Below are positions 55,923-58,992 of a stretch of 64,000 nucleotides of DNA, one piece after another. Each line of letters begins with the position of its first letter. Within the stretch, counting starts at the first letter, position 1. Source of the DNA: Klebsiella terrigena (GTDB lineage Bacteria > Pseudomonadota > Gammaproteobacteria > Enterobacterales > Enterobacteriaceae); assembly GCF_006539725.1 (NCBI RefSeq), contig NZ_BJNO01000010.1:62001-126000 (forward strand). The letters run 5' to 3'. The translations under genes and the position numbers were made by a program. The notes beneath the pieces were generated by a model that was given only the letters and a program-made list of their open reading frames with translations, was not told the origin of the DNA and searched no databases.

Positions 55923-56810
55923 ATGTCATCAACCCGTCCGGTATTCCGCTCGCGCTGGCTGCCCTATCTGCTGGTTGCGCCGCAGCTGATTATCACCATT
56001 ATTTTCTTTATCTGGCCCGCGGGCGAGGCGCTGTGGTATTCGCTGCAAAGCGTCGACCCGTTTGGCCTCTCCAGCCAGTTCGTCGGCATGGATAACTTCG
56101 TTACCCTGTTCCACGACCCGTACTATCTGGACTCATTCTGGACCACCATCAAGTTCAGCTCGATGGTGACGTTCAGCGGCCTGATCGTTTCGCTGTTTTT
56201 CGCCGCGCTGGTCGACTACGTAGTGCGCGGTAGCCGCTTCTATCAAACGCTGATGCTGCTGCCCTACGCCGTCGCGCCCGCGGTAGCCGCGGTGCTGTGG
56301 ATTTTCCTCTTTAACCCAGGACGCGGGCTGATAACCCATTTCCTCGGCGAGATGGGCTACGACTGGAACCACGCGCAGAACAGCGGCCAGGCGATGTTCC
56401 TCGTGGTGTTTGCTTCGGTATGGAAGCAGATTAGCTACAACTTCCTGTTCTTCTTCGCCGCGCTGCAGTCGATCCCGCGCTCGCTGGTGGAGGCCGCGGC
56501 GATTGACGGGGCCGGCCCGGTCCGCCGCTTCTTCAAGCTGGCGCTGCCGCTGATTGCGCCGGTGAGCTTCTTCCTGCTGGTCGTCAACCTGGTTTACGCC
56601 TTCTTCGATACCTTCCCGGTTATCGATGCCGCCACCGCCGGCGGCCCGGTCCAGGCGACGACGACGCTGATTTATAAGATCTATCGCGAAGGCTTTGCCG
56701 GGCTCGATCTCTCCGCTTCCGCCGCGCAGTCGGTGGTGCTGATGATGCTGGTGATTGTGCTGACGGTGGTTCAGTTCCGCTATGTTGAACGTAAGGTGCG
56801 CTACCAATGA
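55923..56810 (+). CDS. ugpA: UgpA glycerol-3-phosphate permease
   Basis: Inner-membrane permease, 295 aa from the ATG at 55923 ([21 protein letters not shown]), the E. coli start and length; the frame extends further upstream but without support. Six hydrophobic segments and the EAA loop [25 protein letters not shown] near residue 205. Overlaps ugpE by 4 bp. Confidence 0.96.
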
Positions 56811-57652
56811 TTGAGAACCGTCCCGGGCTGACGATTTTCAGCCACACCATGCTGATTGCGGGAATTGCCGTCATTCTGTTCCCGCTGTACGTCGCCTTTG
56901 TCGCGGCCACGCTGGACAACAAGGCGGTCTTTGAGACGCCGATGACGCTGATCCCCGGCGGCCACCTTTTGGAAAATATGGCCATCATCTGGAAACAGGG
57001 CGTGGGGGCCAACAGCGCGCCGTTCTGGCTGATGATGCTCAACAGTTTCATCATGGCGTTCAGTATTACGGTGGGCAAAATCGCGGTGTCGATGCTGTCG
57101 GCGTTCGCCATCGTCTGGTTCCGCTTCCCGCTGCGTAACCTGTTCTTCTGGATGATCTTTATCACCCTGATGCTGCCGGTTGAGGTGCGAATTTTCCCGA
57201 CGGTAGAGGTGATTGCCAACCTGAAGATGCTCGATAGCTACGCCGGCCTGACGCTGCCGCTGATGGCCTCGGCAACCGCCACCTTCCTGTTCCGCCAGTT
57301 CTTTATGACCCTGCCGGATGAGCTGATTGAAGCGGCGCGCATCGACGGCGCTTCGCCGATGCGCTTTTTCCGCGACATCGTGCTGCCGCTGTCGAAAACC
57401 AATCTCGCGGCGCTGTTCGTTATCACCTTTATCTACGGCTGGAACCAGTATTTATGGCCGCTGCTGATCGTCCAGGACGTCAATCTTGGCACCGCAGTCG
57501 CCGGTATTAAAGGCATGATCGCCACCGGCGAGGGCACCACGCAGTGGAATCAGGTGATGGCGGCAATGCTGCTGACGCTGATCCCGCCGGTTGTTATCGT
57601 TTTAGCCATGCAGCGCGCGTTTGTGCGTGGTTTAGTGGACAGTGAGAAGTAG
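56807..57652 (+). CDS. ugpE: UgpE glycerol-3-phosphate permease
   Basis: Second permease, 281 aa, E. coli length. The EAA loop [25 protein letters not shown] is near residue 170. It ends LVDSEK as expected. The last two bases of its TAG stop are the first two of the inverted-repeat element that follows, so the insertion has landed at the stop codon without altering the protein. Confidence 0.96.
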
Positions 57653-57918
57653 GTTGTATCCCTTGATTGTTCGTGGCGTCGACGCTGAGCCGAAACCGCG
57701 TAATCAAGGCGGAGGATGATGGACATAGTGGGCCTATGTCCAAATCCGACAACGCAGAGTACGCGGTTTCGGCACGCGTCCCGAAGGGCTGGGGCCATTT
57801 TTGCCCGGTACCGCGTTACTCGCGTCTTATTTGGGCCCACCAAACTGCGACGCTTGCGCCTTGCCCCGAGCAAAAATAGCCGCCAGCGACGTTCATGAAC
57901 AATCAAGGGATACAACCT
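57651..57918. mobile_element. MITE-like inverted-repeat element between ugpE and ugpC
   Basis: 268 bp bounded by perfect 22-bp terminal inverted repeats (57651-57672 beginning AGGTTGTATCCC, and 57897-57918). Inside are two long hairpins. Left: GCCGAAACCGCGTA (57689-57702) pairs exactly with 57760-57773 and encloses GGACATAG/CTATGTCC (57721-57741). Right: 57789-57808 (CTGGGGCCATTTTTGCCCGG) pairs almost fully with 57866-57886 and encloses TTTGG/CCAAA. No transposase or credible ORF. No clear target duplication is visible. The right repeat supplies the AAGGGA ribosome binding site of ugpC. The family is unknown to me; a non-autonomous transposable element is the likeliest explanation. Confidence 0.75.
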
Positions 57919-57921
57919 TTT

Positions 57922-58988
<1,067 letters not shown>

Positions 58989-58992
<4 letters not shown>

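Follow-up and report, generated by a model that had tools for sequence, protein, structure and literature searches.

A double-hairpin element between ugpE and ugpC of Klebsiella terrigena, probably an IS5-type MITE, with a core conserved as a folded strand

The ugpE-ugpC junction

The window analysed here is a stretch of 64,000 nucleotides from Klebsiella terrigena (contig NZ_BJNO01000010.1), and window coordinates equal contig coordinates minus 62000. Near its end, a 268-bp element lies exactly between ugpE and ugpC, as the initial annotation had placed it; both neighbours match NCBIfam models. The features of the junction are as follows.

56807..57652, + strand: ugpE (permease), with a stop codon made up of T(57650) and AG(57651-57652) of the element; NCBIfam UgpE, E 2.4e-171
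57651..57918, + strand: whole element, putative MITE of the double-hairpin family, 268 bp
57651..57672, + strand: left terminal inverted repeat, 22 bp, perfect; its first bases, AG, complete the ugpE stop TAG
57687..57775, + strand: Arm A, the 89-nt hairpin motif M; match to the M model (R2) at G000:C10:119687-119775:+, E 4.4e-16
57776..57792, + strand: spacer, 17 nt; its central CCCGAAGGG at 57780-57788 is the centre of twofold symmetry
57793..57881, - strand: Arm B, second copy of M, inverted; match to the M model (R2) at G000:C10:119793-119881:-, E 6.0e-16
57897..57918, + strand: right terminal inverted repeat, partner of the left 22-bp repeat
57905..57910, + strand: AAGGGA, resembling a Shine-Dalgarno sequence for ugpC; in the closing stem all of it pairs with TCCCTT from the left end
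57922..58992, + strand: ugpC (ATP-binding protein), frame intact; NCBIfam UgpC, E 1.2e-184

The two ends of the element, AGGTTGTATCCCTTGATTGTTC and GAACAATCAAGGGATACAACCT, are perfectly complementary over 22 bp and 96% complementary over 25 nt. The A and T at its tips may be part of a TA target or of the stop codon and not of the element. The + strand RNA is predicted to fold into a closing stem and two long arms at -151.8 kcal/mol (z -12.3), a value equalled by none of 200 shuffles, and the fold of the - strand is nearly as strong (z -11.9). Arm A is laid out as stem - CAAGGCG - hairpin TAGTGGGCCTA - CAACGCAG - stem. Among ORFs of at least 100 aa, only an antisense frame at 57550-57915 spans most of the element, and one reading of the ugpC ORF begins within it; judged by sequence, the element is devoid of a credible internal ORF. 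The ends, predicted fold and ORF list thus bear out the earlier description of a 268-bp element with perfect 22-bp ends, two hairpins and no ORF. One full copy is present in its own genome, along with a solitary sequence resembling an end, AGGCTATGTCCCACAATTG, on another contig (G000:C5:87035, L328) with no further element part.

A promoter scan of the element returned no promoter and a terminator scan returned one terminator-like site where 0.7 would be expected by chance; we therefore claim neither role for it. Searching the element against Rfam 15 gave only a chance-level match to ncS54 (17.2 bits against a threshold of 43, E 0.54), and none was found over the element in eight relative loci at E up to 1. 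The earlier failure to recognise the family accords with the lack of an Rfam match above chance in either search.

The element end does complete the ugpE stop codon, as had been proposed. The companion proposal, that the element supplies the ugpC ribosome binding site, stands as to position, AAGGGA being located 11 nt before the ugpC ATG at 57922, but an open site is doubtful because all six of its bases are paired in the predicted closing stem (alignment columns 255-260 with 9-14). The expected effect is therefore a reduced or coupled translation of ugpC. The near adjacency of ugpE and ugpC elsewhere, stated in the initial annotation, is confirmed: element-free junctions mostly consist of TAA, a few bases and ATG. 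An ATG inside the element, at 57895, is in frame in the genome studied here and would extend UgpC by nine N-terminal residues; the same upstream ATG appears by eye to be out of frame in G045.

A core conserved as a folded strand

The core of the element is composed of two inverted copies of the 89-nt hairpin M, and either strand, read 5' to 3', therefore presents the order end - M - spacer - M' - end. M is laid out as stem - CAAGGCR - stem - hairpin TAGTNNNNCTA - stem - YAACGCAG - stem. In an alignment of 71 arms, retained from 91 rows after removal of those more than 90% identical, the mean column identity is 54% and 27 of the 29 pairs show double changes. Paired cells make up 90.0% of this alignment, with a covariation score of 0.875, against 35.5-44.3% and 0.133-0.197 in controls in which the partner was slid by 1-3 columns, a comparison that favours the unslid version, the structure having been derived from the same alignment. 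Two non-helix column pairs, 20-71 (A.C, U-A, G.A) and 24-67 (C.A, A.G), covary too. Over the whole element, 52 of 95 predicted pairs carry changes on both sides among 23 full copies collected by BLAST, from which six of 29 loci had been left out as partial or divergent (L005, L015, L016, L022, L024, L032). The inner parts of the ends vary in these copies yet keep their complementarity.

The two strands are not equivalent in their mismatches. G-T pairs outnumber A-C pairs in M by 154:37, and by 109:37 once the conserved wobble 37-54 is set aside. The corresponding ratio in the BLAST-collected copies is 18:5 for the arm stems, and for the end stem it is 9:10 over the outer 19 pairs and 23:16 over 30. 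From the covariation and the G-U bias together we infer a folded M strand, whether RNA or single-stranded DNA, either of which is compatible with the bias. From these alignments, selection of the core as a folded strand is very well supported; whether it acts as RNA is, on the same material, an even question. We rejected a kissing interaction of the arm loops (window sequences GTGGGC/GCCCAC) because their complementarity is expected from the inversion of the arms and, by eye, is not kept in all copies.

Distribution of the family

A BLAST scan of Enterobacteriaceae returned matches in 23 of 392 genomes, at least three of them short fragments (G227, G293, G380); two candidates were scored per genome, which makes copy numbers lower bounds. 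Full copies at places other than ugp are 266-268 bp long, 72-79% identical to that of the window and inserted in unrelated places, with ends like AGGCTGTGTCCC...GGGACACAGCCT. Among plasmids, a full copy of 73.5% identity was found at the end of rfbD in Citrobacter braakii and one with different ends in Halomonas sp. PA16-9, and a search with another family member gave partial matches in four records. The Citrobacter copy (L004 4001-4268, plasmid pF217-3) ends exactly on the rfbD stop codon, as the window copy does on that of ugpE; an IS630 transposase is annotated about 0.7 kb from it, with no relation demonstrated. Escherichia coli genomes and phages contained no element match at blastn-distant settings, and viral contigs no match to one end-plus-arm pattern.

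Structure-aware models extended this range. The model of the trimmed element (R1) matched 60 of 295 genomes of the order; many copies score about equally on either strand (for instance 115.1 and 114.7 at L074), as expected from Arm B being the motif of Arm A in reverse complement, and match totals that include both strands of one element do not count elements. The M model (R2) matched 115 of 274 genomes of the class, which we take to be Gammaproteobacteria, or roughly four in ten, and 101 of 249 genomes of the phylum, many of them listed outside the class; the two samples overlap, and the scan scored at most 16-17 candidates per genome under strict filters. A second, inverted arm lies nearby in 40 of 48 loci inspected (weak or partial in three of the 40), usually at a distance of about 17 nt, mostly 15-18, once 12 and in a few loci 34-42 nt. 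The remaining eight (L140, L146, L152, L156, L157, L161, L162, L177) have no second arm, and two of these lie at contig edges, where a partner would be cut off.

A pattern scan identified 69 named loci, of which 27 were tested with R1 and 26 matched. The matched genera and species comprise Kosakonia, Raoultella ornithinolytica, Yokenella, Avibacterium, Psychromonas, Photobacterium, Porticoccus, Methylophaga, Neptuniibacter, Thiodiazotropha and others. The sole cyanobacterial pattern hit, L254, gave no R1 match and was taken as chance. The initial annotation had suggested a search in Klebsiella, Raoultella and Enterobacter; relatives are indeed found there, but the range is far wider, and the signature of the family is the covarying pair of inverted hairpins, not the ends. 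The family is large and apparently undescribed: open-access literature searched by sequence words and by topic gave no description of it, while subscription journals and ISfinder could hold one.

Ends, target sites and transposases

The ends differ by lineage (TAGGGCCTGTTAACAC, TAGGGTCTGTTGGCGTTTCG, TAGAGCGTGTTTATCTTTG, TAGGCTGTGTTCTTAAAC, TATACCCAAGCCACCTCAAGAT, TAGTACTCTTTCAAGG, TAGGGAGACGCTGATTGAATCG and others) while the double-hairpin core persists across very different bacteria. In four high-copy genomes (G872, G885, G785, G1012), most copies are flanked as YTA|GGG...CCC|TAR, consistent with a TA target; exceptions include L184, L206, L208, L209 and L215. By eye, T and A stand outside both ends in six of the 18 non-ugp copies of the 23-copy set; at ugp, TA is present on the left side only. 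Seven near-identical copies in G608 (L093-L099) have the same core with quite different ends (ATACCAATTAGTATAA) and no obvious TA-type boundary.

Ends also coincide with stop codons more often than control TA sites do. Of 148 ends (81 loci), 20 lie directly on, or no more than 3 nt from, the stop codon of an ORF at least 150 codons long; of 1821 TA sites taken as controls from the adjoining 20-300 nt, 27 do. The ugp site was counted once, and the count contains some noise because the end finder overran about a dozen of 87 loci. Where the first base of an element is G, any TA target becomes TAG.

The initial annotation had proposed a search for a transposase element with the same ends; nearly the same ends were found in some high-copy genomes. 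The complete genome G785 contains five insertion sequences of 811-812 bp with TAGGGCGTGTTAACAC ends, one base off those of its TAGGGCCTGTTAACAC MITEs. The four inspected encode transposase in ORFs of two frames, and those ORFs that were searched hit DUF4096 (E 1.4e-22) and DDE_Tnp_1 (E 7.1e-13), the pattern of the IS5 family. The evidence in G592 is partial: a transposase frame with DUF4096/DDE_Tnp_1 domains, which looks shortened, begins about 80-90 nt inside a AGAGCGTGTTGATCTTTG end (L119), and two contig edges (L120, L121), each next to another end of this kind, show what by eye look like the start and the C-terminus of a transposase, but no intact insertion sequence with both ends was seen in this genome. 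M was searched for inside the insertion-sequence stretches of G785 and G592 and is absent from them. A partial M match of 28.6 bits (L224 946-1012, G785) starts 34 nt outside an IS5-type copy, a MITE beside an insertion sequence.

The profile PF13340 (DUF4096) found no match in the genome of the window or in G078 and G087, and in G072 one sub-threshold match interrupted by a stop; G072, G078 and G087 each carry several end pairs. No partner insertion sequence was seen for the end type of the window or for the AGGCTGTGTCCC type, so that either another type of transposase moved these copies or the source is gone from these genomes. Taken together, the sequence evidence makes membership among IS5-type MITEs quite probable.

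In G872, 38 of 41 end pairs counted by hand span 268-269 bp, two span 172 bp and one 52 bp, and 12 more ends have no partner; it is thus the full form that amplifies. Derivatives with intact ends that have lost one arm (172 bp) or both (about 50-63 bp) occur (L226 and L228 in G872; L131, L132, L227, L329, L332), and the arms may accordingly be dispensable for movement. The 172-bp form has the same junction at two sites, by eye. Ten lone ends that were inspected look by eye like remnants, and G592 (L113-L128) carries several 25-30-bp relics, TAGAGCGTGTTTATCTTTCGTTCTA, composed of a single end and a few bases and adjoining genes; these might be footprints of excision or deletion.

Occupancy of the ugp site

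The proposal that the element is a mobile repeat and not a fixed feature of the operon agrees with the many other sites of its relatives and with the ugp site itself, which lacks an element in 26 of the 28 genomes matched in the family sample and in 16 of 20 species of the genus, four species being occupied. Empty junctions of the genus read gagaaaTAAAATGGC in 15 species and gagaagTAGGAAATTTTATGGC in one. The latter (L316, G1153) has TAGG and TTTATGGC in common with occupied alleles; it may have been left behind when an element was lost, or represent the state before insertion.

Copies of the AGGTTGTATCCC subfamily were found by the family scan at exactly the ugpE-ugpC junction in G000, G045, G334, G383 and G366, the last four being 91-93% identical to the copy of the window. 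Altogether this subfamily occupies the same ugp site in eight genomes of four genera and was seen nowhere else in the data examined; named occupied loci, which may overlap with these eight, are those of Kosakonia quasisacchari, K. pseudosacchari, R. ornithinolytica and Enterobacter sp. 10-1. Across the eight genomes the element is 90.7-100% identical, and ugpE fourfold sites differ by 11-53% (ugpC fourfold counts for pairs with L007 cover only 11-12 codons and were disregarded). Identity follows genus groups, with 97.4-100% within g1, 97.0% within g45 and 90.7-95.5% between genera. Close pairs have 0 to 8 differences per 268 positions of the element at 11-15% ugpE fourfold divergence; the genome of the window and G1160, for instance, differ at 0/268 element positions and 16/107 fourfold sites. 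Variable sites number 26 of 190 among paired and 18 of 78 among unpaired positions, and of 20 variable pairs, pairing is kept in 12 and broken in at least one copy in eight.

Occupancy mapped on the tree of the flanking ugp genes implies at least five changes, and none of 200 bootstrap trees reduces these to a single change; the element was therefore gained, lost or exchanged repeatedly at ugp. In comparisons between genera, excluding pairs with L007, the flanks of occupied alleles are elevated in identity (0.98 vs 0.84) solely over the 30 nt on the left of the junction. Because occupancy is polyphyletic and identity is raised beside the junction, recent exchange may explain part of the slow change seen at ugp. 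The refuting condition set by the initial annotation, a sequence confined to this locus and conserved in all relatives, has a mixed outcome: the AGGTTGTATCCC subfamily is restricted to ugp in these data and evolves slowly, and so behaves here as a resident, although the family is mobile and most ugp sites are empty. The ugp copy is best described as a resident that is occasionally exchanged between lineages and probably constrained.

Discussion

With confidence close to even, we favour an explanation in which the element is an IS5-type MITE with a core that works at the RNA level and is now resident at ugp. It would be a non-autonomous DNA transposon without an ORF, whose family members were moved in trans by IS5-type transposases. 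Insertion at the TA of a TAA or TAG stop codon would rebuild TAG and leave the upstream gene intact because most members begin with G, which fits ugpE. M may then function as RNA in transcripts that read through from either side. Bound to a conserved partner, either an RNA-binding protein or an RNase, it would limit or tune what the insertion does to the host transcript. The copy between ugpE and ugpC would now be an orphan resident that breaks the translational coupling of the two genes and hides the ugpC Shine-Dalgarno sequence in a long stem, and the hidden site and lost coupling together would adjust the amount of UgpC, as the initial annotation had suggested. The conserved fold suggests that it has some job to do; for the ugp copy in particular, a host function is conceivable on this model, at somewhat less than even confidence. 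A broader proposition is more speculative still, namely that M is an undescribed structured RNA, ranking with the most widespread of Gammaproteobacteria, that rides IS5-type MITEs and has outlived their ends. Inserted in double format and independently of orientation, at stop codons or other TA sites, it would act by way of a conserved partner that binds RNA, and some copies, such as that at ugpE-ugpC, would have been domesticated.

The folded strand could instead be DNA. The same MITE would then rely on its core as single-stranded DNA: while the DNA is replicated or transferred, the 5' strand at each end would fold into M, and the transposase or a host protein would hold it and so pair the ends for transposition. 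The constant place and polarity of M relative to both ends, the nearly fixed spacer, the dominance of two-arm copies in G872 and the retention of the core while ends and host sites vary all fit such a role. We nonetheless regard it as unlikely: IS5-family DDE transposases act on double-stranded ends, M is absent inside the insertion sequences of G785 and G592, the outer end stem is free of the strand bias seen in the arms, and arm-less forms exist at other sites. Integron attC sites, retrons, IS200/IS605 elements and group II introns were also considered and dropped, the hairpins being inverted copies and the ends appearing IS5-like.

The copy at ugp may be of no consequence for the host. A neutral passenger, with the core selected only during spread and the slow divergence at ugp due to recent transfer of the occupied allele among genera, would account for the repeated occupancy changes recovered in every bootstrap tree, for the confinement of raised identity to 30 nt left of the junction and for the eight of 20 variable pairs in which pairing is broken in some copy. 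We consider this a possible but not a favoured account, since element identity tracks genus groups and element divergence is several-fold below fourfold divergence even in close pairs. An ordinary repeat of the REP, ERIC or REPIN type, or a fixed ugp riboregulator, would likewise be intergenic, structured and beside a stop codon, and is nevertheless highly improbable given the lack of an Rfam match, the presence of family members at many unrelated loci, and a length, ends and internal architecture unlike those of REPs as described in the available portion of PMC3733652. There, REPs and REPINs with their RAYT transposase are GTAG- or CGTC-tagged palindromes of 20-40 bp (PMC3733652); the ends of the present family are mostly of the (Y)TAGGG/TAGGC type, and its arm is 89 nt long.

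MITEs are usually seen as transposon ends around filler. In the present family, it is the filler that is conserved, with a precise fold, covarying stems and conserved noncanonical positions, and the ends that change. A conserved fold implies a partner that reads it, and the natural insertions, empty sites, one-arm and arm-less variants constitute a ready set for finding that partner. The ugp copy provides a test case for the incorporation of mobile DNA into an operon. Correia/nemis and ERIC repeats presumably differ from this family in both sequence and architecture.

Other structured mobile repeats share some of these features. In the excerpts available, Correia/nemis and ERIC are described as structured MITE-like repeats in transcripts, and Correia elements as able to alter the expression of neighbouring genes, also via RNase cleavage (PMC10969869). 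The Chunjie MITE of Geobacter uraniireducens, 235 bp long and with many further copies, resembles the window element in being inserted within a phosphate-uptake operon, a comparison made by description only; the same excerpts mention no conserved two-arm core for it (PMC10969869). QMITE2 of Coxiella burnetii, found mainly in 3' untranslated and intergenic regions, is similar in having full and reduced forms and a strongly folding transcript and, as far as the excerpted account goes, differs in its length of 150-190 bp, its direct repeats of 7-11 nt in place of TA and its content of a GTAG REP (PMC5896051). The closest likeness is to IS5-family MITEs, with which the family shares a length below 300 bp, the lack of an ORF, terminal inverted repeats, a TA target as seen in most copies of high-copy genomes, and ends near those of DUF4096/DDE_Tnp_1 insertion sequences in the same genome (G785 and, partly, G592). 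It departs from them in that the core and not the ends is conserved, and in that a covarying pair of inverted hairpins is kept across bacterial classes.
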